From positions 1 to 51,261 of the IMG/VR virus record IMGVR_UViG_3300027659_000047: a DNA stretch of 51,261 bases; one strand, given 5' to 3'. Positions within the stretch are counted from its first letter, which is position 1; each line of letters begins with the position of its first letter. Shown here one piece after another: positions 1-18,193 of this stretch. The notes beneath the pieces were generated by a model that did not search any database, was not told the origin of the DNA, and saw only the letters and a program-made list of their open reading frames with translations. Source of the DNA: a virus. The position numbers were made by a program, and so were the translations under genes.

Positions 1-261
1 AGCGGTAAGGTATTTAAAATAAATTCATTAATAATTGCAAACGTGAATGGTACAACAGCAGCAGATATTACTGCTGATGTATATAAAAATCAAACAACTG
101 CGTTTAGAATAGCATTTACAATTTCAGTACCTGCTGATGCTACACTAGTATTGATATCAAAAGATACTTCTATCTACTTAGAAGAAAATGATAGTATTCG
201 TCTTACATCTAGCGCAAACAGTATTCTTGAGGCATTGTGTTCATTTGAAGAGATTTCTTGA
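1..261 (+). CDS. virion structural protein, C-terminal part (5' end outside window)
   Basis: The reading frame is open from the first base and ends with TGA at 259-261, so this is the last 86 residues of a gene that begins upstream. A GTG at 43 is possible as a start but the frame before it is open, so a partial gene is the better reading. The sequence alternates short hydrophobic beta-like strands (LIIANVNGT, FRIAFTISVP, ATLVLISKD, DSIRLTSS). This is the style of small beta-sandwich proteins in the tail-fibre and neck regions of T4-like aquatic phages, and it loosely resembles the protein at 21124-21537. The next gene starts in its stop codon (TGATG), so the two are translationally coupled. 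The exact role is unknown; a structural role is inferred from position. Confidence 0.6.
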   Translation, partial: SGKVFKINSLIIANVNGTTAADITADVYKNQTTAFRIAFTISVPADATLVLISKDTSIYLEENDSIRLTSSANSILEALCSFEEIS

Positions 262-1415
262 TGGGATTCTATACAAAACATCAAAACTACATTGGAAACC
301 AGAGTGTTGCTAATAGACCACTCAATCTACCATTGATAGGTTCAACTGGTTCTTTGTTTTCGTTCACAACTTTTACATTTACGTCAGCTGGACTATGCGG
401 AAGATTTGGACCAACATTTGCATCGTTGACGGCAAATGCAACCTATGCTGCACAACCTTGGACTAGTAATGCAGCTTTCTTTTCACAGGGACGAGCACAA
501 GGTTATCAGGTTTGGCAACCACCAGCAAGCGGAATTTACGAAATTGAAGTTGCTGGCGCAAGAGGTAATTATGGCACCAGTGGCGTGGTAGGTGGCCATG
601 GGCGTGGCGCAATAGTACGTGGAAACTTTATATTAAGTACTGCTAATAAGTTAGAAATGGTGGTAGGACAAAGCGCAGGTGCTTCTGTAGACATCGCTAG
701 CAACACCACTGCCTCAGGAGTAGCCATGGCTGGCGCTGGTGGTGGAAGTTTTGTTGTGTTGCAAGGTACAAGTACTCCTATCATAATTGCTGGCGGTGGT
801 GGTGGATCTTACTCAACTTGGACTACACAAGCAATTATTAACGGTCAAACTCGAGAACGACCAAGATGGGATGGCTATGCGCTTTCTCCACTTGTTCTTG
901 GTACCCATCCCGCAATAGGTGGGGGCGGCCATGGATATCATGGTGGTGGTGGTGGTGGACTACTCACTGCAGGACAACCGTATAATTTTACAACTAACTA
1001 TACTGGATCTGCAGCAGTCACAGACGGTAATGGTGGACAACAAACTACACATGGAGCATCATTCATAGGCGGATCTGTAGATAATGCGGCAGGAACATGG
1101 TATGCTACTGGCGGTGCTGCCAGCGCTGTAACTAATGCTCGTGGTGGTTTTGGTGGTGGCGGTGGTGGACATACTGGAAACAATACAGGAGGCGGTGGTG
1201 GTGGTTATTCAGGAGGGCATGGAGGGCAGACATCTATGGGCGGTAGTTTTCTTTCAGGTATAGGTGGCGGTTCATATATTGATTCTACTGCAACAGCTGT
1301 AGCAACCAGTGATGGTGTATATAACACATCTGGTACATTTAATGGTTCAGCTATAACTAACATAGCATCATTTAATGATAGTAATGGATACATTAAAATA
1401 ACCTTTCTAGGTTGA
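261..1415 (+). CDS. glycine-rich tail/adhesin protein
   Basis: The protein has 384 residues. The ATG at 261 overlaps the preceding stop codon; a TTG one codon earlier is less likely. The first 80 residues look like an attachment domain. The rest is very rich in glycine, with repeated GGGGGG stretches separated by beta-strand segments (IEVAGARG, LEMVVGQSAG, IIIAGGGGGS, GGGGHTGNN), ending in GGGSYIDS. This pattern matches the glycine-rich domain seen in ALK/LTK receptor ectodomains and in many phage fibres, where polyglycine helices pack into a compact tip. In phages such proteins are usually distal receptor-binding parts, for example the glycine-rich adhesin gp38 of T-even phages, though I see no direct similarity to gp38. 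It lies in a run of fibre-like genes. Function as an adhesin is inferred. Confidence 0.7.
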   Translation: MGFYTKHQNYIGNQSVANRPLNLPLIGSTGSLFSFTTFTFTSAGLCGRFGPTFASLTANATYAAQPWTSNAAFFSQGRAQGYQVWQPPASGIYEIEVAGARGNYGTSGVVGGHGRGAIVRGNFILSTANKLEMVVGQSAGASVDIASNTTASGVAMAGAGGGSFVVLQGTSTPIIIAGGGGGSYSTWTTQAIINGQTRERPRWDGYALSPLVLGTHPAIGGGGHGYHGGGGGGLLTAGQPYNFTTNYTGSAAVTDGNGGQQTTHGASFIGGSVDNAAGTWYATGGAASAVTNARGGFGGGGGGHTGNNTGGGGGGYSGGHGGQTSMGGSFLSGIGGGSYIDSTATAVATSDGVYNTSGTFNGSAITNIASFNDSNGYIKITFLG

Positions 1416-1427
1416 GGATACTTTAAC

Positions 1428-3692
1428 ATGACCGCAAATGGCAATATAATTGGAAAATTAAACTCCACCTCAACTAGTTCTACAGTTGGAGTATATGATA
1501 CGCTTGATCAATATACCGCAAAACGTGTAAATGCATGGCCAATAACTATAAAATATTCAAGCATTACTGTAAATTCATCTACTTCAGCATTATCATTAAA
1601 TGAAGGAAGTTCTATTACTGTAGTTGTAGCGACTGAAGGTATAACTTCTGGAACACTTTATTACTCAATAAGTTCTGTAGGTGGCACTGTCAATACAAGC
1701 GATTTTACAGATTTCACTGTGACTGGATCATTTGCAATAGCATCTAATACTGGAACTTTTACAAAGACATTACGAGCAGATGGAACGAGCGAAGCAGGTG
1801 ACGCATTCCAAGTACAAATAAGAACTGGTAGTACATCTGGACCAATAGTACTTACATCCTCAACTATAACAATTAATGATCCTACATTTACAGTAAGCAC
1901 GTCAGCTACTTATAATGAAGGACAATCTCCGTATATTAATTTTAGTGCCACTAACTGGAATACTCAAACTTTATATTGGAGATCTAGTAATGCTGCAGAT
2001 GATAATTCATCTGGGTTGACACAAAGTACCTTTTCTTATACAGCAGGTGTTACGGCAGCATTTTTTCCATACACACTTAAACAAGATATGATTACTGAGG
2101 GTAATGAAACCCACACGATATCAATATATGATAGTACTAATACGTATCTTCTTGCATCTACGACATATACTGCAGTAGATACTTCACTTGCACCAACTGT
2201 TACTGAATCTACTCTTTCTATAAACGAAGGTGATCCAGTAACATTTACTGTTACGTTTCCTGGAGGTCCAACTAGCGGTACGATATATTGGACTACTACT
2301 GGTACAATGACTGCCAATGATTTTACAAATGGTGTCTTGAGTGGAACAGCATCGATATCTGCTTCGGGTAGTAATGGTGTTGCAACTATCACTAGAACAG
2401 CACGTCGTGATTATATCACAGATGGAGCAAAATCATTCGGATTAAATTTATATAGAGATGGAGTAGCAAGTGCTCTAGTGTACACTGGGTCACCAACACG
2501 AATTTCAGTGGCAGATACTGTACAAACACCGACAATAACTCCTTCTTCTGTTAGCATTAACGAAGGAGATACTGTTACGTTTACAGTTAACACTACTGGT
2601 GTAGTAGATGGTACAGTATTACCAGTCACAATGGTACTAGTGAGTTCTGTCAGTGGTTTTGGTAATGCATCAGATTTTACAGATAATAGTTTAACTACAA
2701 GTGTTACTATAACAAGTAACACTGGAACTTTCACAAGAACTTGGGCAAACGATACATTTACAGAAGGTACAGAAGTTTGGAAAGCAGATTTAAAGTATCC
2801 TTCTGGAGATCCACTATTTGGTCAAACTATAATATCTTCTGCTAATATAACTGTTGCTGATACGAGCACTGGAACTGCTGAGGTTAGTGATTATGTTCCT
2901 GCAATACCTACAACAAACTTATACAGTCATTACGACTTTAGTAAACTAACTGATGCAGTAGGCACATCGTATAGTACAAACGGACAAGTTATTACAAATT
3001 CTTCAGGAACATCGATTGGTGCAGCAGCAGGAACTCCGTCATTATCGTTTGTATATTCATCTGGGACGAATACCCCTGCTACTATTTTACAAACAGCAAA
3101 CGGAAAAAAATATCTTTCTCTTCCCAATACTACTGGCTCGAACACAGGTGGACTGCTAAGATCGGCAGCTGACGCTTTTCCTAATGTAACATCTGCTGGT
3201 TATTCATGTATTGCAGTTTGGAGATACCACACAACCCAAGGAAGTAGCTACATTACACCACCTTTTAGATACATGTTGGCTGGATATTCATATGACTATA
3301 ATGGTTTAATGTATTTCTCAAACTCTGGCGGTAATAATGAGTTAGAGACTATAAATTATGCAGCCGTAGCTGCATATTCATCGACCACGACACCTAATAG
3401 AAGTGGAATAACTGGAATAGTTATTGATATGATAACTGTAATTAATAACACTGTAACTATTCGAACAACTATTGGTGGAAGTGCTGCTACAATATATACT
3501 CATACAGGCACTACATCCAACACACCAACTTACAGCACAACAGCAAGCAGCAATCGATACTTAGAACTCGGAACTATTTTTTATAGTGCTCGCCCTCCAA
3601 TGTATCTATATGAATTTGCTTTTTATAGTGCTCCATTAACACTGGCGAACTTAACATCTACATTTACAACATTATACGCAAAATGGTCATAA
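1428..3692 (+). CDS. Calx-beta-like repeat adhesin with C-terminal lectin-like domain
   Basis: The protein has 754 residues. After about 45 N-terminal residues there are about four copies of a roughly 100-residue unit carrying the signature SxNEGxxVTFTV, then G(T)xYW, then a DFTxG-like segment, and ending in xxVxDT. These features are typical of Calx-beta/Ig-like repeats of surface adhesins (approximately residues 45-150, 150-245, 246-360 and 361-480). The remaining 250 residues start with a YDFSKL segment and look like a concanavalin A/LamG-type beta-sandwich (aromatic strands, LELGTIFYS, YLYEFAFYSAPL), a fold often used for sugar binding. It is probably a tail-fibre or side-fibre protein that reaches the host surface. 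Repeat and lectin assignments come from sequence pattern only. Confidence 0.72.
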   Translation: MTANGNIIGKLNSTSTSSTVGVYDTLDQYTAKRVNAWPITIKYSSITVNSSTSALSLNEGSSITVVVATEGITSGTLYYSISSVGGTVNTSDFTDFTVTGSFAIASNTGTFTKTLRADGTSEAGDAFQVQIRTGSTSGPIVLTSSTITINDPTFTVSTSATYNEGQSPYINFSATNWNTQTLYWRSSNAADDNSSGLTQSTFSYTAGVTAAFFPYTLKQDMITEGNETHTISIYDSTNTYLLASTTYTAVDTSLAPTVTESTLSINEGDPVTFTVTFPGGPTSGTIYWTTTGTMTANDFTNGVLSGTASISASGSNGVATITRTARRDYITDGAKSFGLNLYRDGVASALVYTGSPTRISVADTVQTPTITPSSVSINEGDTVTFTVNTTGVVDGTVLPVTMVLVSSVSGFGNASDFTDNSLTTSVTITSNTGTFTRTWANDTFTEGTEVWKADLKYPSGDPLFGQTIISSANITVADTSTGTAEVSDYVPAIPTTNLYSHYDFSKLTDAVGTSYSTNGQVITNSSGTSIGAAAGTPSLSFVYSSGTNTPATILQTANGKKYLSLPNTTGSNTGGLLRSAADAFPNVTSAGYSCIAVWRYHTTQGSSYITPPFRYMLAGYSYDYNGLMYFSNSGGNNELETINYAAVAAYSSTTTPNRSGITGIVIDMITVINNTVTIRTTIGGSAATIYTHTGTTSNTPTYSTTASSNRYLELGTIFYSARPPMYLYEFAFYSAPLTLANLTSTFTTLYAKWS

Positions 3693-3714
3693 AATAACAG
3701 AGATGAGGTTAAAT

Positions 3715-4170
3715 ATGTACAGCTACAATAACGAATATCCTATCAAAGATCTTCCTCATAGAATCCGTCTTTCTAATGGGATGACCAAAACTGATTCTTC
3801 TACATTTACAGAAGAAGATATTACATATGCTGGGTATAGATATATAGAAGAGCCACCTTCTTATGATTCACTCAGAGAGCGTTTAGAATGGATTATGGAA
3901 GATGGCATTGGTAAATGGAATGTTGCCCAAGTAACTAATGAACACAAATGGCAAGAAATTCGTAATCAACGAGATAAAATTATGAATGATTTTGAATGGA
4001 GAATTTTACGATATAATAGAGAAATTAGCCTAAGAGAATTTATTGGTGCAACATATCCGATAACTGATAATATTAGAGAATTACATTTGTATATGCAATC
4101 TCTTGCAGACATTACAAAACAAGAAGATCCTTGGAATATAGTTTGGCCAGAATATTCTACTATTGACTAA
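3715..4170 (+). CDS. tail-fibre assembly chaperone candidate (Phage_tail_APC-like)
   Basis: The protein has 151 residues from the ATG at 3715, chosen because GAGG lies six bases upstream; an in-frame ATG at 3703 has no such site. The C-terminal half reads W-x2-IR-x-QRD, then a tryptophan, and closes with Y-x3-LADIT-x2-DP-x-NI-x-WPE. This matches the tryptophan-rich end of phage tail assembly chaperones (LRxxRDxLLxxxDW ... YRQxLRDI ... VxWP). Such proteins are small, lie next to fibre genes and help fold or trimerise fibres. The stop codon lies inside a perfect 8-bp hairpin with an AAAA loop. The assignment rests on the C-terminal pattern. Confidence 0.6.
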   Translation: MYSYNNEYPIKDLPHRIRLSNGMTKTDSSTFTEEDITYAGYRYIEEPPSYDSLRERLEWIMEDGIGKWNVAQVTNEHKWQEIRNQRDKIMNDFEWRILRYNREISLREFIGATYPITDNIRELHLYMQSLADITKQEDPWNIVWPEYSTID

Positions 4171-4210: not shown

Positions 4211-6058
4211 ATGAGCGGTTTTAAACTTAATAATATCGATTTAGACGAAAGTCTAGCATTAGGATATGATGAATTGCTCGATAAGAGTAACGCTCAAACT
4301 CGTATGTGGTTTGCCACGACATACGCAGGTTTTAGTTTAGGCATTATGGGAAGAATTGATTCATACAGTTTTCCCATGTCTCATGCAATAGCAGCTTTAG
4401 GTACTGCAATTGATCCTACTTCTTCTGATACGATTAATGCGTATGGCACAGCAGCTTCAGGCTGGAAGAAAATAATAGCGTTAAGTATGTTCGAAAGGAT
4501 TGGACTTAAGTATGATGGAACTGCATATACTTGGGGCCTTTTTAAAGAAGATGGTTGGAAAGAAGATGGTGTTGCACCAAGATATACTCGCGGAAAATTA
4601 GGTGGACCATCATATTCAGTAAAGTTTAAAGATATATTTGCAAACAATATAGGTCCACTTTATGAGGCGTATAGTAATCATATAAGTGCTATTGATGAAA
4701 ATGGCGATGTGTGGTTAGGTGAATCTACAGCACTTGAATTTGGTGGTGATCCTCAAGAAGATGCAGCATCTGCAGTAACTCTTGGAAAATACGCAGACTA
4801 TACATCGGCGGCCGCAGCATCATTTGACGAAAGAAAAACATTTGCAAAAGCTACAGAGCTTAATAAACTTGGTCCATGGAAAAAGGCTGTTGTAGCTTCT
4901 GGGCGCGCTGATTCTTTAGATAGAAGTGGAATGGCTATACGTGCAGATGGCTCATTATGGGCATGGGGAATGTATCCAATAAAACCTAGTACAACATATC
5001 CAAACATCAGTACCACTAGTGAAGTAGGAGCTTTCACTTATAAAAGAACTATTCCTATCTTTGGAACTAGTAAATTGTATACGTACACACCAGTGTTAGT
5101 TGATTCTGGTGAGTGGATAGATATTGTTAATAACGGATCTTATTGGTGTGGTATCAAAAAGAATGGCGATGTTGGCGTGTTCGGATCATTTGGAACTAGC
5201 GCATCTAACGTTTATAGCGAAACCGTTGAAAGTACTGGTTTAACAATTTATCCTGTAGGAGCTAAAGCATTTTCAAGTGATGGTTATTACATAATAAAGT
5301 CTGATGGTAGCTTAATGTTCAATGCTATCCATAGAAAAACACTTGTTGAACTAAACGTAACAAGTGTGGCTAGTGGAGGCGGTAGCACAGCCATAGTAAC
5401 TCATGATGGTACTTCAACTTTGCTTACTGGCGCAAAAATAAGAGTACTTGGGTGCGTTGGTACTCAGCAAGGACCTCTAAATACAGAAGATCCAGCAGCA
5501 ATTACTGTGTTGAGTGCTACGACTTTTAGCTACGGGCAAGGGCTCGCAACTGGTACAACCTTAACTACAGGTTTGGGTTCTTTTATAGTTGAAGAAAATT
5601 TAAGTTTATACTCCTATCCTCCAACAAATTATATAAACTATCGCACTAAGACTAATCAGATAGCTGTTATAAAACCTCCACTTGAAACAGGATTTAAAGA
5701 AGTATCTGGGCATCAGGGATGGATGGATATAGTTTATAAAAATTATTCGAGCGAATCTCTTTATATACATAATGCTTCTGTTTTTAATGGCTATCATGAA
5801 GCATCTTATCTTGGGTTAAAAGATGACGGTAGTCTTTATATATGGGGTGAATGGTACGATGTAAACTTTGATAAAGGATCTTTCGATGTTAGACAAAGTG
5901 TTAAATTTGATCCAGGTTATAGAACTTCATCTGGCACGGTGAGCACGGTGATTGGTGGTCCCGGCGCCAATGGTCTTTACGCCACTAATAATCAATATAA
6001 AAAATTCTTGAGTATAGCACATACATTTCAAGGTAATCATCTAATAGAAAAAATTTAA
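4211..6058 (+). CDS. RCC1-repeat tail protein 1
   Basis: The protein has 615 residues, preceded by GGAGAAG. It carries degenerate RCC1-type blades, recognised by repeats of the form (A/G)(I/L)xxDGxLxxWG: GLKYDGTAYTWG, AIRADGSLWAWG, GIKKNGDVGVFG, GLKDDGSLYIWG. Such repeats build seven-bladed beta-propellers. Around residues 384-462 the propeller is interrupted by a segment (AIVTHDGTST ... ATTFSYGQG) that resembles the small beta domain often inserted in phage structural proteins. It is the first of three adjacent RCC1-type genes and presumably forms part of the tail fibre or its tip. What the propeller binds is unknown. Confidence 0.72.
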   Translation: MSGFKLNNIDLDESLALGYDELLDKSNAQTRMWFATTYAGFSLGIMGRIDSYSFPMSHAIAALGTAIDPTSSDTINAYGTAASGWKKIIALSMFERIGLKYDGTAYTWGLFKEDGWKEDGVAPRYTRGKLGGPSYSVKFKDIFANNIGPLYEAYSNHISAIDENGDVWLGESTALEFGGDPQEDAASAVTLGKYADYTSAAAASFDERKTFAKATELNKLGPWKKAVVASGRADSLDRSGMAIRADGSLWAWGMYPIKPSTTYPNISTTSEVGAFTYKRTIPIFGTSKLYTYTPVLVDSGEWIDIVNNGSYWCGIKKNGDVGVFGSFGTSASNVYSETVESTGLTIYPVGAKAFSSDGYYIIKSDGSLMFNAIHRKTLVELNVTSVASGGGSTAIVTHDGTSTLLTGAKIRVLGCVGTQQGPLNTEDPAAITVLSATTFSYGQGLATGTTLTTGLGSFIVEENLSLYSYPPTNYINYRTKTNQIAVIKPPLETGFKEVSGHQGWMDIVYKNYSSESLYIHNASVFNGYHEASYLGLKDDGSLYIWGEWYDVNFDKGSFDVRQSVKFDPGYRTSSGTVSTVIGGPGANGLYATNNQYKKFLSIAHTFQGNHLIEKI

Positions 6059-6059
6059 T

Positions 6060-7376
6060 ATGCCATTAGGAAAATTAGGTTATACAATTAACGACGCTGC
6101 GCTGCAGGATAGATATGTTTCTAAAGCATATCTGATGGATAACTACGCATCTTTAAACATTCCTACATACTTGTGGGTGTGGGGTTATAGTGTTGATGGC
6201 GCGCAGGGCTTGGAGGGTGGTGTGTTTCAAGCATCATGGCCTAAAAGAATCTATCATCCTGCTGGTAGGTATAGTCGTTTTTCAAATAGCAATGGTTATT
6301 CACGCACAGGAATGGCCATAGACTATTCTGGAAAATTGTGGATATGGGGAAGAGGGCCGCAAGGGCAGATTGGATCTTCCGCACTAGTTAGTAGACAAAG
6401 AACGCCAATTAATCCATACGACACTGTAAACTATAAATGGATTCAAGCAGCTCATAGTTATTATACAAGTGCTGCTATTAGAGAAGATGGAACTTTGTGG
6501 GTTTGGGGTCTTAACGGTTATGGAGAAGCTGGTGTTGCAGGTGGTGCAATCCGTAATATACCAAATCAAATAGTATACCCTGCAGCATATGGATGGAAGA
6601 AAGTCGCGTGTGCACATTATCACAACGTTGCAGTACGAAATGATGGAACGCTGTGGACGTGGGGTAGAGGCGAGTTGGGAGAAGAGGCTGGATGTGATTT
6701 ACTTGGAAGAGCTACAGCTGGAGCAAGTAATTATCAACCTATTCAAATAGGAACTGCTAATGATTGGAGTGATATTGCATGTGGTGAATTTCACTCACTA
6801 GCAATTAAAGCAAATGGAACATTGTGGAGTTGGGGAGCACAAAGATTTTCTGCATATTACACTCCTTCTAGTAGCGGAAGTGTATTAGGAAGAACTGCAG
6901 CGACTGCTGCAATAGCAAACGTTCCTACGCAAATTGGAACTAGTACAGATTGGGAAAGCATATATGGAACTATTGGCGGTTCTTATGCAATTAATAAAAA
7001 TGGTCAGTTATATGCATGGGGATTAGATAGACCTGGCACTTTGTTAGGTGCCGCAAACACATCCGCACCTACTCTAATTGAATCTGTGTCTAGCACAATG
7101 GGCGTATTTAAGAAAATTTTATGCGCGCCAGGACAAACGATAGGTATAAGACACGATGGACACACCATGATTTGGTCCGATGGTCCTGGCACTCAGTCTG
7201 TTAATGGTGTTCAGGTCGGTTCATGGTGGGAAGCAACTCCTCTTAGTAATGGATTTGCTGGGAAGAAAACACGAAAATCAGTACCTTCTACAATAGATGG
7301 AATTATTATTTCAGGTGATTTCGGCATACCAGACTATAACGTAGTACTCCTAAATAGATTAGATTCTATTATTTAA
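6060..7376 (+). CDS. RCC1-repeat tail protein 2
   Basis: The protein has 438 residues and starts one base after the previous stop. It is the cleanest RCC1-type propeller of the three, with six to seven consecutive blades: LWVWGYSVDGAQG, LWIWGRGPQGQIG, LWVWGLNGYGEAG, LWTWGRGELGEE, LWSWGA, LYAWGLDRPG. Most blades are preceded by (A/S)xAIRxDGT and separated by QIGTxxDWxxI linkers. The short N-terminus (first 35 residues) probably anchors it to a neighbouring tail protein. RCC1 proteins in cells are beta-propellers that bind protein partners or chromatin. Here it is most likely a receptor-binding or spacer module. No eukaryote-like localisation signal is visible. Confidence 0.78.
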   Translation: MPLGKLGYTINDAALQDRYVSKAYLMDNYASLNIPTYLWVWGYSVDGAQGLEGGVFQASWPKRIYHPAGRYSRFSNSNGYSRTGMAIDYSGKLWIWGRGPQGQIGSSALVSRQRTPINPYDTVNYKWIQAAHSYYTSAAIREDGTLWVWGLNGYGEAGVAGGAIRNIPNQIVYPAAYGWKKVACAHYHNVAVRNDGTLWTWGRGELGEEAGCDLLGRATAGASNYQPIQIGTANDWSDIACGEFHSLAIKANGTLWSWGAQRFSAYYTPSSSGSVLGRTAATAAIANVPTQIGTSTDWESIYGTIGGSYAINKNGQLYAWGLDRPGTLLGAANTSAPTLIESVSSTMGVFKKILCAPGQTIGIRHDGHTMIWSDGPGTQSVNGVQVGSWWEATPLSNGFAGKKTRKSVPSTIDGIIISGDFGIPDYNVVLLNRLDSII

Positions 7377-7386
7377 TGAGAATATA

Positions 7387-10300
7387 ATGACTTCTAATTT
7401 AAAGAAAACCTTTTCAGTAGCAGGATATGTTCCTTCGGAATACACCATGTCTATTGACGACTTAACGTTTAGCGTTGATAAGATTTCCACAAATAATCTG
7501 GTGTATTCGTGGGGTCGTAATGACTGCGGACAACTTACAAACAATTCTTCTATAGATAATGTTTATGGCACAAGCTCTTCCACTTCATATCCGCAATCTG
7601 TAGTTCCTTCAGGTGTTGGAAAGACTGCAAAGTTTAAGAAAATTTCTGCAGGAAGTAACCACACTCACGCAATTGCAACTGATGGAAGCTTGTGGGGATG
7701 GGGAAGTAATAAACATGGAGAACTTGGTACTGATAAAACTATTGGTACTAAGTCATTAACATTCACTAGCGGTGTTGCTACTGGAGTTACGTATGGAATA
7801 CACAGCGATCCTCATGACGAATCTATAGTTGGAGTTGGGACTAATGGTTTAATTTTCCAAAGTTATCGTAATCCTGGAAATACTATTCGCACAATACCCA
7901 CTAAAGCCGATGCAACAACGGCATTTAATTATGGTTATCATAACACGAGTGGCATTAATTTCAAAGGTATAATAAAAATTAATACTAATAGTGATTATAG
8001 AACCAAATATAACATGAGATATGTTGCATATGGTTTTAACTCAGGTGTTAACGACGGTGTTTTTGGCAGAGGTCTTATCTCGCTAAGTAGTAATATTAAT
8101 GAGAGCAATGCTTTAACATTTGATCCTGTAGCATCTGCTTCTGCTGGTCAATGGACTACGTGGGGTGCGAATGATTTAACACAAAGTGTTAATTCAGCAG
8201 CTGCACTGGATAATGGTTCTTTAATTTTAGTTGGAAATGTTGGACAAGTTATAAGATGCTCCAATATTGCTGGACAAGTTGCGGCTGGTACTGCCAGTAG
8301 CAATCCAGGATTCTCGGTGTCTCAAGCTGGGTCAGTAAACTTAAATCAAGTCATTGCAATATCAAATAAAAGACCTAATGGTACAACTGGCGAGGTGTCA
8401 GTAAATCCAACATCTATATCTAGATTTATTATGGTCGGTGACTCTGATACTATCAAATATTCTACTGATGACGGGGTCACATGGATTAATAAAACTACGA
8501 TTACTAGATTAGATCCTTCAGGAAATTACCATTTTAAAAGCATAACATGGGATCAAAACCGCAATAGACTTTATGCAGTAGGTTCTAATACTAACTCTTC
8601 GCTTGAAATTCAAGCTGTGTTAATATATAGTGACGACCTTGGTATAACTTGGACTGAAATGGATATAGTTACATTATCATGTAGAAGTCTTCGTTCAGTT
8701 GTATATGATTCTATGACTGGAATACTATACATGAGTGGAGACGGTGGTTGCATGGTAAAGTATGACGCTGCAACTTCTATTTTTACAAAAATAGATCCTA
8801 CAACAATAGGTTTACCAGCAACATCTACTATATCAGCAGCAGTTAACCATATAGTTGGTGATAATGGTCAAATCACTAATCTATTTTGTTTCAATAATGT
8901 TCACTCATCTTTAAGCTCTTCGAAATGGCCATATAGACCAGACTCATATCCTGAGCACAGTTATTCATCTACTGGAGGAAACATAAGTTTAGATTCTAGT
9001 GTGTTTGCATTCTTATCATATAATTCAAGCAAGATTTTTTATGATGTATTTGAAGATAAATTTACTCCAACGCAAATTGGTACTAGTTATGATTGGGAAG
9101 ATGTTATAGCTGGAACGTCTAGAATGTCTTCTAAAAGATTATCTCTACAAGATACAGGTTCCCCATCCACTACCCGAACTATTAATACTAGTAATTACCC
9201 AATAGCTGCATCAGATATAAACAGCAATGGAACATTTTGGTGGTCCGGAATAGACAAATATTTGTGCAGAGGAACTAGTACACTTCTTAGAAACAATGGG
9301 CAAATTTATAGAACTGGCATGTTATCGGCAGCTACGCCAGGTTTAGCATTTGGCTGCGATAGAACTAATGAAGTTTACGGTATTCTATCAACTTCATCGT
9401 ATCCTACTATGGTTATGAAAACACCAACTCTCTTCTCTAGCTTTTTTTACTATAGCAGTACATATAATGGAACATACGTAAAATTAATAGATACACACGC
9501 AGCAGTAAGTCATTTCAATGCAAAAAGTAGTGCTCTTTATGAACCCACAGAGTATCCTTCTGGTTACGCCTATATGGTATGGGGTCCTAAAGATTTTGGA
9601 GTTGCTGGTAATACTTATATTGGGAGTACTCTCGCGAGTCCTTTTTCAGCTAGTCCACAGAAAGACGGCTATTGGACCATATCAAATAACGCTTATACTT
9701 TTTACGATGATTATGATGATCCTATAGATTGGCTCACAGTAAAGCATAATAATAATATGCATGTAGCTATTTCTAAAGATGGTACGAAGATATATTATAA
9801 TGGCCTCAAAGCTGGAATTGGAATAACTTCCCAGTATTTAAGTATTCATAATAGCGGCACTGCAGCAGGAGCAATAAGAAATGATGGATTTGTAATTCTT
9901 GCTACTGACGCTATAGGATGGAAGTCTATAGCAGTATGTTCGCGATGCATTCTTGCTGTAAAGAAAAATGGTACGCTATGGGGAATTGGATGGGGTCAAA
10001 ATGGAACCCTAGGTCTTGGGAATACACCGTATAGCGTAACGTCATTTACACAGATAGGAACAGCTACAAACTGGAATGAAGTGTACAGTAATGGAAAATA
10101 TTTAGCTGGCGCATTAACGACATCTGGTTCTGTATATATGTGGGGTTCGGTTGTAGAACATGACATTAGTGAATGTCTAAAGACAGCCATGAATATCTTT
10201 AATAGATTTGACGTTCCAACTCCGACGTATGTTACCACTTATGATACATGGGTTTCTACTACATCTATACCTCTTGATTACGAGTATAGTTATAGATGTG

Positions 10301-11745
10301 GTTATTCTACTCCGCAACTAATTAATATTCCGCAGTCATTTACTTCATTATCTATTGGTCAGCGACATGTTCATGGTATTTTCTCAAAGAAACAAATTAA
10401 ACCAGTACCTAATAATCTTGATAAGATTTTAGTTTCGTATATCGATAATGGCACTGAAAAAATAATTTACACAAATCCATTTACTGGAGTAAGTAGTTCA
10501 ATAAGTGGTATTTCATATTTGCAAATTACTAGTACACTAAGAGTGCGCATAGTTGGTGCTGGTGGTTATTCCACAATTCAAGATGCGTTTGATGAAATAG
10601 TAAATGATGATATTGTTTATATCACAAAGTATTATGCAGGTGCAACAGCGCCTTTGGCAGACGCAGTAGGGCCGACGGTGGGGGCGCCACGAGGCGATAA
10701 ATTTGGATTATACTTAGAACCAGGAATTGCTGCAGCTTCTTTAACGGCTATTTACATAAGCTCTTCTTATTTTAATTCAGATAATAATCTGACATACGTA
10801 GGGATTACAGTAACCTTATATGGTCGCGTAGGGCTACAAGTAGTTGCGGTTGGCGATGAACCAGATAAACTTATTGTTTATCGCGACAATAGCAAAATAT
10901 CCTATGCTACTAGTAGTGTAACAGCACCTAGACTTTATAGTCAAATAGGAAGTGACTCTTTATTAGCAGTTGGTGTATATGATTCTATATATCCAATACT
11001 TTTAAGTGCTAGCACTGATTCAGATATTTTAGTCAATGCGTCTGTTATGAGTGTAACAGACGGCGTTGGTGTTAATATGAATGGCGGCAATAATGGTGAT
11101 GTGCTAATGGTTGCTGGTGGTATTGGCGCAAGTTCTGGTATTTCTAAAACAAAGATGTTAGATGTTTCCGCGGCCGCAGGAGATAGAGTAGATCTATCTC
11201 TTCTGAAAACTATAAACGGCAGTTTACTAACAGCAGAAATGATAAATGGAAGTATTGTTACTGCTAGTAACATAACATCTACTGGAACGATTACAACTTC
11301 TAATCATAGTTATTATGTTGGACAAAATATAACTATCACTCCAAGTGGTGGTGGTTCTATTACTATAAATGGAACTGCGTACACCAGTGGAGCACAAAGC
11401 GTAAAAATATCTAGTACGAATGGATATAATTCATTTACTGTAGTATCTACTACAAATGGAAGTGCTGTGACAATGACTGTTACTACAAGTCAGTTTACAA
11501 TATTTGCAGGATCTAGAGTAACATATTTAGGTGGTGATTACACAATTAATATAGCGAATATGTATGCAACTCGTGCAGGTGATATATCGCAAGCAACATT
11601 GCTGCTAACCGGTTCTGTCATAGTAATTTATGCGACTACTACATCAAATGCTTTATCTTCTATGGTATACAATGGTTCTGGAAGAACATTAGATAGTATA
11701 TTTGGCAGCACTTTAATTAATAAGTTGATATCTGAAGCACAATAA
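7387..11745 (+). CDS. giant RCC1/BNR-like beta-propeller tail protein 3
   Basis: The protein has 1452 residues and is the largest in the window. The N-terminal third begins with RCC1 blades (YSWGRNDCGQL, AIATDGSLWGWGSNKHGELG). About residues 340-500 contain Asp-box/BNR-like segments (KYSTDDGVTW, IYSDDLGITWTEM, YMSGDGG), as in sialidase and photosystem-stability-factor propellers. RCC1 blades return near residues 790-950 (AVKKNGTLWGIGWGQNG). From about residue 1015 the sequence changes to a low-complexity beta-rich tail with NGG and SST motifs, resembling fibre shafts or tips. It sits last in the RCC1 triplet, just before the neck genes. It is presumably a long tail fibre or similar appendage; the carbohydrate or protein target is unknown. 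Confidence 0.72.
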   Translation: MTSNLKKTFSVAGYVPSEYTMSIDDLTFSVDKISTNNLVYSWGRNDCGQLTNNSSIDNVYGTSSSTSYPQSVVPSGVGKTAKFKKISAGSNHTHAIATDGSLWGWGSNKHGELGTDKTIGTKSLTFTSGVATGVTYGIHSDPHDESIVGVGTNGLIFQSYRNPGNTIRTIPTKADATTAFNYGYHNTSGINFKGIIKINTNSDYRTKYNMRYVAYGFNSGVNDGVFGRGLISLSSNINESNALTFDPVASASAGQWTTWGANDLTQSVNSAAALDNGSLILVGNVGQVIRCSNIAGQVAAGTASSNPGFSVSQAGSVNLNQVIAISNKRPNGTTGEVSVNPTSISRFIMVGDSDTIKYSTDDGVTWINKTTITRLDPSGNYHFKSITWDQNRNRLYAVGSNTNSSLEIQAVLIYSDDLGITWTEMDIVTLSCRSLRSVVYDSMTGILYMSGDGGCMVKYDAATSIFTKIDPTTIGLPATSTISAAVNHIVGDNGQITNLFCFNNVHSSLSSSKWPYRPDSYPEHSYSSTGGNISLDSSVFAFLSYNSSKIFYDVFEDKFTPTQIGTSYDWEDVIAGTSRMSSKRLSLQDTGSPSTTRTINTSNYPIAASDINSNGTFWWSGIDKYLCRGTSTLLRNNGQIYRTGMLSAATPGLAFGCDRTNEVYGILSTSSYPTMVMKTPTLFSSFFYYSSTYNGTYVKLIDTHAAVSHFNAKSSALYEPTEYPSGYAYMVWGPKDFGVAGNTYIGSTLASPFSASPQKDGYWTISNNAYTFYDDYDDPIDWLTVKHNNNMHVAISKDGTKIYYNGLKAGIGITSQYLSIHNSGTAAGAIRNDGFVILATDAIGWKSIAVCSRCILAVKKNGTLWGIGWGQNGTLGLGNTPYSVTSFTQIGTATNWNEVYSNGKYLAGALTTSGSVYMWGSVVEHDISECLKTAMNIFNRFDVPTPTYVTTYDTWVSTTSIPLDYEYSYRCGYSTPQLINIPQSFTSLSIGQRHVHGIFSKKQIKPVPNNLDKILVSYIDNGTEKIIYTNPFTGVSSSISGISYLQITSTLRVRIVGAGGYSTIQDAFDEIVNDDIVYITKYYAGATAPLADAVGPTVGAPRGDKFGLYLEPGIAAASLTAIYISSSYFNSDNNLTYVGITVTLYGRVGLQVVAVGDEPDKLIVYRDNSKISYATSSVTAPRLYSQIGSDSLLAVGVYDSIYPILLSASTDSDILVNASVMSVTDGVGVNMNGGNNGDVLMVAGGIGASSGISKTKMLDVSAAAGDRVDLSLLKTINGSLLTAEMINGSIVTASNITSTGTITTSNHSYYVGQNITITPSGGGSITINGTAYTSGAQSVKISSTNGYNSFTVVSTTNGSAVTMTVTTSQFTIFAGSRVTYLGGDYTINIANMYATRAGDISQATLLLTGSVIVIYATTTSNALSSMVYNGSGRTLDSIFGSTLINKLISEAQ

Positions 11746-11768: not shown

Positions 11769-12509
11769 ATGGCCGTAACAACAAGACAAGGATTAATCGA
11801 CTGGTGCCTAAGAGAATTAGGTGAACCTGTTGTCGAGATTAATATTGACGATGCTCAGGTCGAAGATAGAGTAGATGAGGCTATTGAGTATTTCCGACAG
11901 TATCACTTCGATGGTATCGAGAAAGTTTATCTAAAACATCTTGTCACTACAACAGATGTGACTAATAGATATATTCCAGTGCCAGATTTGGTTTATGGCG
12001 TAACTCGCGTATTCCCAATTGCATCAGGGACCTCAACATCTAAGTCTATTTTTGATCTACAGTATCAATTAAGACTAAACGATTTATATGATCTGACTGC
12101 TACGTCAGTCATTTATTATACACAAGTGATGGCTCATCTTTCGCTATTAGATTTAACACTTAACGGCCATCCATTATATCGTTTCAATCGATTAACAAAC
12201 AAACTTTATATTGAAGAACAATGGCAAGAAAATATTCAACCTGGCACCTTTCTTCTTGTAGAGTGCTATAGAGTTTTAGATCCAACTGATGCACCAAGAA
12301 TGTATGGTGATTCGTGGTTGAAGCACTATACGACTGCTTTGATTAAAAAGCAATGGGCCACTAACATCAAGAAGTTTCAGGGAATGCAACTTCCAGGTGG
12401 TGTAACTATCGATGGAGATAGGTTATATCAAGAAGCTGTTACAGAAATAGAAAAACTAGAAGATAACTTATTAACAAAGTCAGCTCCTTTAGAATTCTTC
12501 ATGGGCTAA
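11769..12509 (+). CDS. 13: neck protein gp13
   Basis: The protein has 246 residues, somewhat shorter than T4 gp13 (309). The N-terminus ([20 protein letters not shown], then [10 protein letters not shown]) is the hallmark of gp13 proteins of T4-like aquatic phages. In T4, gp13 and gp14 form the neck rings that close the filled head below the portal and allow tail attachment. It is preceded by AAGGAAG, follows a late-type box, and is separated from gene 14 by a single base, so the two are probably co-translated. Gene order 13-14-15 is as in T4. Confidence 0.9.
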
Positions 12510-12510
12510 T

Positions 12511-13419
12511 ATGGCACGTAACGTTTATTTTTCTCACGGTACTAAGAACGAACAGTACCTACTAGAAGATCTTACGATAGAGTCAATCTCTATCTATGGT
12601 CAGGAAATGTTTTACATTCCTAGAACTCTAGTAGCTAAAGACGAGATTCTCGGAGAAGACCGTATGTCGAAGTTTCAAGACGCGTATCCTATCGATATGT
12701 ATCTTGAGACAGTAGATGGATTTGCAGGTCAAGGCGCATTCATTCAAAAGTTTGGTCTGATGATGGAACAGTCTGCAACACTTACTGTTGCACGTAGGAC
12801 ATGGGAAAGGTTTGTAGGAAAGCATAATGACATCATTTTGCCTAATCGTCCAGCTGAAGGTGATCTATTATATTTCCCATTAACAAGAGGTTTATTTGAG
12901 ATTAAGTTTGTAGATCACCAAGATCCATTTTATCAACTCAAGAAACTATACGTATATCGCTTACAAGTAGAGTTGTTCCAGTATAGCTCTGAGAAAATTG
13001 AGACTGGTAATGCGGATATTGATACTTTCGAATCTCTTAAAACTTTTTCCACTGATGTCACAAGATCTGTATATGGTGAAGTGTTGAGCATAAATGTAAC
13101 TAATAATGGTTCTGGTTATACTTCTATTCCAACTGTAACGATAAGTGATGGAGGAGGTTTAGGTGCTACTGCAGTGGCAACTTTAGGAACTGGATCTAAT
13201 GCTGGAAAAGTAATTGCAATTACCATCACTAATGCGGGATCTCAATATACTTCTATTCCAACTGTGACGATATCATCTCCAGCATCAGGAGTTACAGCTG
13301 TAGCTGTAGCAACAATACATATTAATGTAGATAATCCAAATTCATTTGGCAGCAATACATCGTTCAAACAAGAAGCTATAACTCATGTGTTTGATACCTC
13401 TAATCCGTTTGGAGATTAA
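12511..13419 (+). CDS. 14: neck protein gp14 with inserted SGYT-repeat module
   Basis: The protein has 302 residues (T4 gp14 has 256). The first 190 residues are typical gp14: [10 protein letters not shown], a [10 protein letters not shown] motif, then [16 protein letters not shown] and [10 protein letters not shown]. Between about residues 190 and 275 there are two copies of a unit reading [12 protein letters not shown] and [12 protein letters not shown], followed by alanine/valine-rich strands. T4 gp14 does not have this module, and a related one occurs in the sheath gp18 of this phage. The typical C-terminal gp14 tail follows. gp14 works with gp13 in the neck. The insertion probably sits on the surface and may be decorative or adhesive; that is an inference. 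Confidence 0.92.
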
Positions 13420-15782: not shown

Positions 15783-15829
15783 AAATAGACATCACAAGGT
15801 GTTTATTGCATAATAACAGGAGTTTTAAC

Positions 15830-18193
15830 ATGCCTTTTCAACTAAGCCCAGGAGTAGCCGTTGTAGAAAAAGATTTTTCTTCAATTGTGCCAGCAGTTTC
15901 TTCTTCGGCTGGAGCCTTCGCTGGACCATTTGCTTGGGGTCCGGTTGAAGATCCGGTTAGAGTTTCTTCAGAAACCGATTTAGTATCGAGATTCGGTACG
16001 CCAACTGATTATAATTATCAGTCTTTCTTTACAGCTGCTAATTTCTTAGCATATACTAACAACATGCTAATTGTAAGAAGTGATGCTTCTGGTTTAAGAA
16101 ACGCAGTTTCAGTCGCAAGTGGCGGCGTAACTGGAGTTTTTAACTTCGCGGCAGGTAGCGGGTATGCTCCACCTCTGAATGGTGCAACCGGTGAACTTCC
16201 AACGGTTGGATTCAGCGATCCACAAATTGCTGGAGGTGTTAAGCCAACCGCAATCGTTACATTTACAGATAACGTTACTGGTACTGCTCCTAATCAAAGT
16301 GGAACACGTACTATCACGGGCGTTACAATTCTAACACCAGGTAGTGGTTATACTGCTGCTCCAACAATTACTATTACAGCACCAGGTAGTGGCGATCGCG
16401 CAACAGCACAAGCACTTATTGCAGCGGCCGCGCCAAAGATTAAGAACGTCAATCAATATCTAGAATCATATAACGATGGCTCTGGTACATCTGGTACATG
16501 GGCTGCTAAGTTTCCTGGTACTAAAGGAAATGGATTACGCGTTGTACGTCTAGATGCTGGTAACTGGGCTAGCGCAACTACTGGAATTAAAGCTTTATTC
16601 CAAGGCATTCCTGGAACGAGTTTATATGCAGAACAAATGGGTGTCACAAATGATGAGATCCACGTAGTAATATACGATAATAATAGAGGTGATTTCAGTG
16701 GTGTACCTGGATCAGTCTTAGAAAAATATTCATTCTTATCTAAACTATCTGATGCTAAGAATTCGGATGGTTCTAACAACTATTATAAGAGTGTTATCAA
16801 CTCTAGTTCTAGATACATTTGGTGGATGGATCACGCAAGTGATACAACATCAGAACCAAATAGTTCAGTAATTACTGCAGCAACTGGCGTAGCTGGTACT
16901 TTGGCGGCAGTAGGTAATGAAACTGGTGTAGGTGGAAGTATTACCATTACAGACAGCGATGGTTTCACTACACTAGCTGCTTATAAAGCATGGTACGATT
17001 TGGCACCAGATAAAGCATCACGTAAGTTGCTGCTTTCTGGATCAGTTATTAATAACGGAACTTATACAATTGTAAGTATCACGACAACCGGTAGCCCAAC
17101 TATTACAGGTTACACTATTAAAGTAGTTGAAGGATTAACAAACGAAAGCGTTGTTAATTTACAATTAACTTCTGTAGCTAAAAGCGGATGGGGTTTAACC
17201 CGTGCACAAGTAGCAGCAACATCTTCTAAAGCTGTTGCGGTTATGGTTCCATTCGTAACAAACGCTATAACAAACGATGTAACACTATCAGGCGGTGTAG
17301 ATGATTATGAATCTTCACCTGCAAATATTGTATCTGCATATGCTCCATTAACTAATTCAGAACAATATGATATCTCTCTAGTTCCACTCGGTAATGTATC
17401 AGCTACAACTGCTAAACAAATTCTAGATCTTCTAGAGCAGCGTAAAGATTGTATTGTGTTTATTTCTCCAAATACAAATGGAGCACCTATCACTTCTCTA
17501 GGTTCTACTGCAACAAGTGCAATGATTACCTATAAGAATGCAACTTCAATTAATAGTTCTTATGCAGTAATGGATTCTGGATTTAAGTATCAATACGATC
17601 GTTATAATGACTCATATCGTTGGATTCCATTAAACGGAGACGTAGCTGGTTTATGTGCTCGTACTGATTACACTGCTGATCCTTGGTTCTCTCCAGGTGG
17701 TTTCAACCGCGGTCAGATTAAGAATATCGTTAAACTTGGATTCAACCCAAGTCAAGCAGATCGTGATATATTATATCAGAATGGTATTAATCCAGTTACA
17801 GCATTCCCAGGTCAAGGAACTATCCTTTACGGCGATAAGACAATGTTGGCAAGACCAAGTGCGTTTGATCGTATTAACGTACGTCGCTTGTTTGTAGTTC
17901 TTGAAAAATCTATTGCAACTGCAGCACGTTATCAGATGTTTGAATTCAATGATTCCTTTACACGTGCACAGTTTAAGAACTTGGTTGAACCATTCTTACG
18001 TGATGTACAGGGTCGTCGCGGTGTAACCGACTTCCGTGTTAAGTGTGATGAGTCTAACAACACTGGTGAAGTTATCGATCGCAACGAATTCATTGCTGAT
18101 ATCTTTATCAAGCCAAACCGTTCTATCAACTTCATCACACTTAACTTCATCGCTGCTCGCTCAAGTGTAAGCTTTGACGAAATTGGTGGTTAA
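15830..18193 (+). CDS. 18: tail sheath protein gp18
   Basis: The protein has 787 residues (T4 gp18 has 659). The ATG at 15830 is preceded by AGGAG. An in-frame TTG at 15806 would add eight residues that do not fit the family, whose proteins start MxFxLSPGVxVxEKD as seen here. The N- and C-terminal parts are typical contractile sheath, including the conserved end (FIADIFIKPNRSINFITLNF). Two internal expansions explain the extra length: a module near residues 100-205 with GSGYTAAPTITI and a degenerate copy, and a beta-rich segment near 370-440 (SGSVINNGTYTIVSI). The sheath surrounds the tube of gp19 and contracts during infection. A hairpin follows the gene. Confidence 0.96.
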   Translation: MPFQLSPGVAVVEKDFSSIVPAVSSSAGAFAGPFAWGPVEDPVRVSSETDLVSRFGTPTDYNYQSFFTAANFLAYTNNMLIVRSDASGLRNAVSVASGGVTGVFNFAAGSGYAPPLNGATGELPTVGFSDPQIAGGVKPTAIVTFTDNVTGTAPNQSGTRTITGVTILTPGSGYTAAPTITITAPGSGDRATAQALIAAAAPKIKNVNQYLESYNDGSGTSGTWAAKFPGTKGNGLRVVRLDAGNWASATTGIKALFQGIPGTSLYAEQMGVTNDEIHVVIYDNNRGDFSGVPGSVLEKYSFLSKLSDAKNSDGSNNYYKSVINSSSRYIWWMDHASDTTSEPNSSVITAATGVAGTLAAVGNETGVGGSITITDSDGFTTLAAYKAWYDLAPDKASRKLLLSGSVINNGTYTIVSITTTGSPTITGYTIKVVEGLTNESVVNLQLTSVAKSGWGLTRAQVAATSSKAVAVMVPFVTNAITNDVTLSGGVDDYESSPANIVSAYAPLTNSEQYDISLVPLGNVSATTAKQILDLLEQRKDCIVFISPNTNGAPITSLGSTATSAMITYKNATSINSSYAVMDSGFKYQYDRYNDSYRWIPLNGDVAGLCARTDYTADPWFSPGGFNRGQIKNIVKLGFNPSQADRDILYQNGINPVTAFPGQGTILYGDKTMLARPSAFDRINVRRLFVVLEKSIATAARYQMFEFNDSFTRAQFKNLVEPFLRDVQGRRGVTDFRVKCDESNNTGEVIDRNEFIADIFIKPNRSINFITLNFIAARSSVSFDEIGG

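Follow-up and report, generated by a model that had tools for sequence, protein, structure and literature searches.

Proteins with RCC1-type β-propeller repeats, and multi-copy clusters of their genes, are already known from phages. Mass spectrometry has identified three adjacent RCC1 proteins, W70_237-239, in virions of coliphage W70 (PMC11370258) and RCC1 proteins in the GAP32 virion (PMC5259590), and multi-copy RCC1 genes are found in Rak2-like phages (121Q, PBEC04, GAP32, phAPEC6) (PMC5259590, PMC7247149). For the virion RCC1 proteins of coliphages, a role in DNA packing has been proposed (PMC7247149, PMC11370258). Here we analysed three abutting plus-strand genes, P1, P2 and P3, in a 51,261-nucleotide stretch of viral DNA (IMG/VR record IMGVR_UViG_3300027659_000047, positions 1 to 51,261; the whole stretch is hereafter the window). 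As the original prediction, made from the letters alone, had it, these genes lie at 4211-11745, encode 615 + 438 + 1452 = 2505 residues and precede the neck genes, gp13 and gp14 being identified by PHROG and Pfam profiles. We conclude, with a probability of about 0.72, that the trio encodes RCC1-type β-propeller tail proteins that act in receptor binding as adhesins, their genes filling a variable slot before gp13. This role is favoured because of the location of the genes, the replacement of the slot in close relatives and an isolated phage in which an RCC1 propeller follows a T7-type tail-fibre N-terminus; the same findings lend indirect support to the receptor-binding tail role that the original prediction had suggested. 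We rank this role above DNA packing, with other structural roles in between.

The Synechococcus phage S-SRM01 resembles the window in being T4-like, in having three RCC1 genes (gp335, gp337, gp344) in its tail-fibre/baseplate region, in encoding seven-repeat propellers and in the class of the N-terminal segment, or tag, of its second gene, which is that of P2. However, the S-SRM01 proteins are standard propellers of 344-405 residues without a BNR insertion, their genes lie over 8 kb with a DUF4376-type gene between the first and second, and identity to P2 is about 30%. W70 and the Rak2-like phages likewise have adjacent or multi-copy RCC1 genes but belong to other lineages, and the 40-43 kDa W70 proteins lack the additions found in P3. 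Eukaryotic RCC1-like propellers (UVR8, HERC1/2 RLD, RCC1) have, by sequence, the repeat and the seven-bladed architecture, but are cellular regulators with no tag and no phage context. When isolate phages were searched with the window genes, there was no match at the DNA level, and at the protein level no match to P1 and only distant RCC1 matches. The features of the trio are as follows.

4211..6058, plus strand: P1, degenerate RCC1-like protein, 615 aa (RCC1_2 3.2e-5; BLASTP to P2 2.5e-6)
6060..7376, plus strand: P2, seven-repeat RCC1 propeller, 438 aa (WD40_RLD 1.1e-46)
6060..6170, plus strand: P2 N-terminal tag QDRYVSKAYLMDNYASL, second-gene tag class of phage RCC1 trios (19.5 bits)
7387..11745, plus strand: P3, composite protein, 1452 aa (profile and sequence matches)
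7483..7746, plus strand: first RCC1 stretch of P3, residues ~33-120 (profile matches)
8374..8790, plus strand: BNR/Asp-box-like stretch of P3, residues ~330-468, between the RCC1 stretches (sub-cut-off profile matches)
9727..10149, plus strand: second RCC1 stretch of P3, residues ~781-921 (BLASTP to P2 1.6e-12; own-profile matches)
10507..11742, plus strand: P3 C-terminal domain, residues ~1041-1452 (phmmer to L087/L090 proteins)
11731..11745, plus strand: exchange boundary, start of nucleotide homology to close relatives (blastn against L087, L088, L089, L090)

P2 is, on sequence grounds, beyond doubt an RCC1 propeller: all three Pfam RCC1 models score above their curated cut-offs (RCC1_2, 5e-26), seven repeat matches span residues 38-375, and a sequence search of the PDB finds HERC1/UVR8 at 5e-23 as well as RCC1 structures. 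P3 also matches far beyond chance, with RCC1_2 and RCC1 at about 1e-14 (above their cut-offs), WD40_RLD at 3.7e-24 (below that model's cut-off) and UVR8 in the PDB at 3.6e-14; its blades are confined to two widely separated stretches, which these matches place at residues ~35-120 and ~780-925. By the same kind of evidence P1 is related to P2, which it matches over 230 residues, but is degenerate. RCC1_2 is the only RCC1 model above its cut-off in P1 (24 bits vs 22), repeat matches are weak, residues ~385-500 form a large insertion and the PDB sequence search gave no match; several recognisable repeat strands lie along the length of the protein. The original claim of RCC1 blades in all three proteins is therefore secure for P2 and P3, in the latter for two stretches only, and weak for P1, and the QIGTxxDW-type linkers it described are present in P2 and P3 and missing from P1.

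The BNR/Asp-box (sialidase-like) segments that had also been noted in P3 are present but fall below the curated Pfam cut-offs. BNR reaches 0.0035 with the whole protein and 2.5e-4 with the fragment (17.5-21 bits vs 27), and Sortilin-Vps10 reaches 7.3e-5 with the fragment (22 bits vs 33); strands are predicted at residues 435-468. The C-terminal domain, which had been called fibre-like, matched no known family and no fibre family. It is instead shared with the protein encoded just before gp13 in each of two relatives, L087 and L090 (phmmer 1.4e-26 and 6e-21; 35-39% identity); the N-terminal parts of those proteins are not related to P3. HPr-type and tail-tube matches of this domain were set aside as too weak.

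The trio lies between a tail-fibre-assembly-type gene on its 5' side and gp13 on its 3' side. We surveyed this slot with gp14 as bait, fetching 80 IMG/VR loci. Apart from the window and a resample of it (contig L006, the sole other copy found, 99.99% identical over 21,742 bases), 32 loci, some of them duplicates, include 5 kb or more of sequence upstream of gp13. RCC1 genes were found in none of the 80 loci except that resample. The gp13 proteins of the three closest long relatives (L087, L089, L090) are 92-96% identical to that of the window, and blastn homology to L087, L088, L089 and L090 starts at 11731-11742, in the last codons of P3; the genes upstream differ. In L089 the slot encodes a 1985-aa protein bearing Ycf48-type BNR repeats, accompanied by a Phage_tail_APC (chaperone) gene of its own. 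Two proteins are encoded there in L087 and L090: a large repetitive one, 1743 aa long in L087 and truncated by the end of the contig in L090, and one of 989-1021 aa whose last part, and not the first, is homologous to the P3 C-terminus. In L138, the tail-assembly-type gene of the window is kept, and sulfotransferase, cytidylyltransferase-type and glycosyltransferase-like genes precede gp13. Overall, Mtd_N, the major tropism determinant N-terminal domain, occurs in 15 of 52 slot proteins of relatives and Peptidase_S74 in 7 of 52, both in more distant relatives, and tail-fibre PHROGs are found as well. Because slot genes are swapped among relatives, including Mtd_N, Peptidase_S74 and tail-fibre PHROG proteins, the slot, as judged from its gene content, behaves as an adhesin locus exchanged between relatives.

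RCC1 propellers are physically joined to tail-fibre sequences in PollyC (gp38), an isolated T7-like phage, and in SeaP4 (SeaP4_12), where a gene in the tail-fibre position encodes a T7-type tail-fibre N-terminus (Pfam 6e-5, narrowly missing the cut-off; tail-fibre PHROG matches reaching 1e-66 and lower) and an RCC1 propeller. These proteins are comparable to the trio in placing an RCC1 propeller within a tail-fibre gene; unlike it, they are from T7-like podoviruses and are single genes in which the propeller is joined to a T7 gp17-type N-terminus. In LIBA6276, a 1627-aa RCC1 protein is flanked by annotated tail-fibre genes. These data bear on the alternative that RCC1 proteins lie inside the virion or associate with its DNA and help to organise the packaged DNA, for which the coliphage proposals, nucleosome binding by eukaryotic RCC1 and the DNA metabolism categories of the PHROGs can be cited. 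However, the coliphage proposal was based on the family name, the PollyC/SeaP4 propeller sits on a tail-fibre N-terminus, the slot is variable and holds Mtd_N and S74 proteins in relatives, unlike conserved packaging genes, and the nearest relatives have no RCC1 genes. We consider DNA organisation highly improbable. PHROGs 4219, 7220 and 16766 are filed as DNA, RNA and nucleotide metabolism; phrog_4219 spans nearly the full length of proteins with T7-type tail-fibre N-termini and is probably misfiled. Phage RCC1 proteins are filed in databases under chromosome condensation or DNA metabolism, and the evidence points to exchangeable tail adhesins.

The original prediction had regarded the trio as unusual. 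That view is countered by the W70 and Rak2-like clusters described above and by RCC1-baited IMG/VR searches, which suggest that RCC1 adhesins are widespread in environmental phages; the trio, tag and repeat counts given here are among the matches listed. RCC1 genes were tightly clustered, most commonly in threes, and the clusters frequently lie near tail-fibre or baseplate genes; at least 14 loci besides the window have such clusters upstream of gp13 (in L077, an exception, gp13 comes first). Where three-gene loci have a DUF4376-type gene (S-SRM01 gp336 family), it separates the first two RCC1 genes in 21 of 22. With one locus left out at a time, tag models in three classes (A-B-C), built from pre-propeller N-termini grouped by gene order alone, recovered the gene order in 50 of 57 cases; 6/6 new loci bearing two or more tag classes also kept the order. 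In the 17 trios compared, N-termini of different phages had a similarity of 0.302 when they came from the same position vs 0.029 otherwise, and propeller similarity was 0.680 within a phage vs 0.573-0.574 between phages at any position (0/2000 permutations for each of the two effects). The tags were found solely on RCC1 open reading frames (ORFs) and on no non-RCC1 ORF, and the idea that they are shared with other tail proteins was dropped. Searches of isolate phages with the S-SRM01 tag gave a convincing match to S-SRM01 only, and with the P2 tag alone none.

Repeat counts per RCC1 protein peak at 8, which we read as seven blades plus a closing strand. Among the large RCC1 proteins, which reach 50 repeats, 12 out of 15 have counts of 7m or 7m+1 (binomial p 5e-5, the 7m-or-7m+1 criterion having been picked after the counts were seen). 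The suggestion that the system is expandable is borne out in this wider family, mostly by whole seven-blade propellers and not single blades. Such expansion was not seen within the window, in which no tandem DNA repeats and no trace of recent repeat growth in the trio were seen; no blade copy-number variants of the trio were found, the sole other copy being the near-identical contig.

These data would be consistent with a three-gene RCC1 adhesin system shared by aquatic phages, in which position-specific tags dock three non-equivalent propellers on the tail and the propellers, homogenised within each phage by recombination, grow in seven-blade units, yielding a receptor-binding organ that is modular and quickly re-tuned; in a second lineage a parallel trio with unrelated tags would serve. 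We put this general scheme forward tentatively, as somewhat less than an even proposition. RCC1 trios are in any case a recurrent and apparently undescribed arrangement: a literature search, with most subscription journals outside its scope, found neither phage RCC1 proteins as receptor-binding proteins nor a description of the tag-and-propeller trio, its exchange or its growth rule. The propellers might instead be tail-borne spacers, decoration or fibre scaffolds that bind no receptor, as propellers are common scaffolds and fixed positions with whole-propeller growth would fit that role. We find this unlikely, since wholesale replacement among close relatives, and replacement by folds of known tropism type, is typical of host-recognition genes and the tags are kept between phages while the propellers vary.

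Several very large proteins and divergent clusters were also seen. L083 (3095-10549) encodes a 2484-aa protein with 50 RCC1 repeats, about 7 propellers' worth, and L063 (2956-9381) a 2141-aa protein with 43, about 6 propellers' worth. L225 has eight successive RCC1 genes, each of about one propeller, with N-termini that differ from the trio tags. A second phage lineage (L193, L197, L201, L210, L211, L213, L216, L226, L227, L232, L237) has RCC1 trios with three N-terminal tag types unrelated to A-B-C, the second of the form SGVWTLQAQMQAxAAGTWxG.

Like the recurrent trios, the window has three successive RCC1 genes in the tail region upstream of gp13, and P2, second in order, bears the second-position tag. 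Its score was obtained with a model built without the window, and none of the other 1354 ORF N-termini and none of 700 shuffles scored as high. Other observations count against reading P1-P3 as such an adhesin trio. The P1 N-terminus matches the first-position model weakly, at 3.1 bits (14 of 1354 other N-termini as high), that of P3 does not match the third-position model, at 1.5 bits (111 of 1354 as high), and the proposal that all three window proteins carry trio tags was rejected as true of P2 only. No DUF4376-type gene separates P1 from P2, with just 1 base between them and an APC-like gene 5' of P1 instead, and the window propellers are divergent from one another. Low-confidence AlphaFold models of P1 (mean predicted local distance difference test score, pLDDT, 52) and of P3 residues 1-1061 (pLDDT 45) have RCC1 propellers as their best PDB matches, with template modelling (TM) scores, by target length, of ≤0.47 and ≤0.28; because the supplied alignments were RCC1 proteins, this resemblance is weak evidence and partly by construction. 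Finally, the numbers of the W70 RCC1 genes, 237-239, are far from those of the tail genes, 106-127 (PMC11370258), and not next to those of neck or tail genes.

Because the P1 and P3 tags are poor, the DUF4376-type gene is missing and the propellers are divergent, the window trio is a divergent or partly independent example, its A-B-C membership only partly shown. One might go further and take P2 alone as a functional RCC1 propeller, with P1 and P3 being adhesins that have decayed or are unrelated and that contain RCC1-like blades here and there. The low RCC1_2 score of P1, the separated stretches of P3, the poor models and the lack of an established tag on either protein fit this idea. We nonetheless find it doubtful, if the least improbable of the alternatives, as all three reading frames are long and uninterrupted and lie close together, both P1 and P3 match P2 by BLASTP and recognisable repeat strands occur throughout P1.

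If P1, P2 and P3 are indeed receptor-binding tail proteins, they would be present in the virion, the N-terminal segment holding each protein on the tail or baseplate and the seven-bladed disc offering variable loops to the cell surface. In the recurrent arrangement, short tags mark positions one, two and three and leave the propellers free to exchange; P1 and P3 would take the first and third. The slot evolves by whole-gene replacement up to the gp13 boundary and by domain swaps within P3, and the trio would be this virus's divergent form of the recurrent arrangement. The split between anchor and head makes a host-recognition role directly testable, and the family would provide a natural case of β-propeller evolution, by homogenisation and whole-propeller growth.

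The window, a 51 kb IMG/VR record, comes from a T4-like (cyanophage-type) myovirus and is possibly a fragment; the nearest relatives of its terminase are those of Synechococcus T4-like phages (about 50%). P3 ends 23 bases before the gp13-type gene, which is followed by gp14, a sheath-stabiliser gp15-type gene, a gp17-type terminase and further structural genes. The genes flanking the trio are listed here.

258-1415, plus strand: glycine-rich putative tail gene, 385 aa (ALK_LTK_GRD 6.8e-7)
1428-3692, plus strand: Ig-like putative tail gene, 754 aa (Ig_3 1.3e-5, below cut-off)
3703..4170, plus strand: tail-fibre-assembly-type gene (Phage_tail_APC-like), 155 aa, immediately 5' of the trio (Pfam PF16778 7.9e-6)
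11769..12509, plus strand: gp13-type neck protein, head-tail adaptor (phrog_211 3.2e-39)
12511..13419, plus strand: gp14-type neck protein, head closure (T4_neck-protein 7.6e-35; phrog_460 1.1e-81)

The Phage_tail_APC-like gene is marginally below the PF16778 cut-off (26.1 bits vs 26.6), matches tail fibre / tail fibre assembly PHROGs at 3e-7 and has an orthologue in L138 at 280 bits. Short GSGYTxxPTxTI-type repeats are present in the gp14-type neck protein (residues ~180-285) and in a sheath-type protein (15806-18193), and the neck-protein copies have matches among tail-fibre and virion-structural PHROGs. The resample contig L006 differs from the window at only two sites, 10591 and 10601, both nonsynonymous and located in codons 1069 and 1072 of the P3 C-terminal domain, which could be microvariation or assembly noise.

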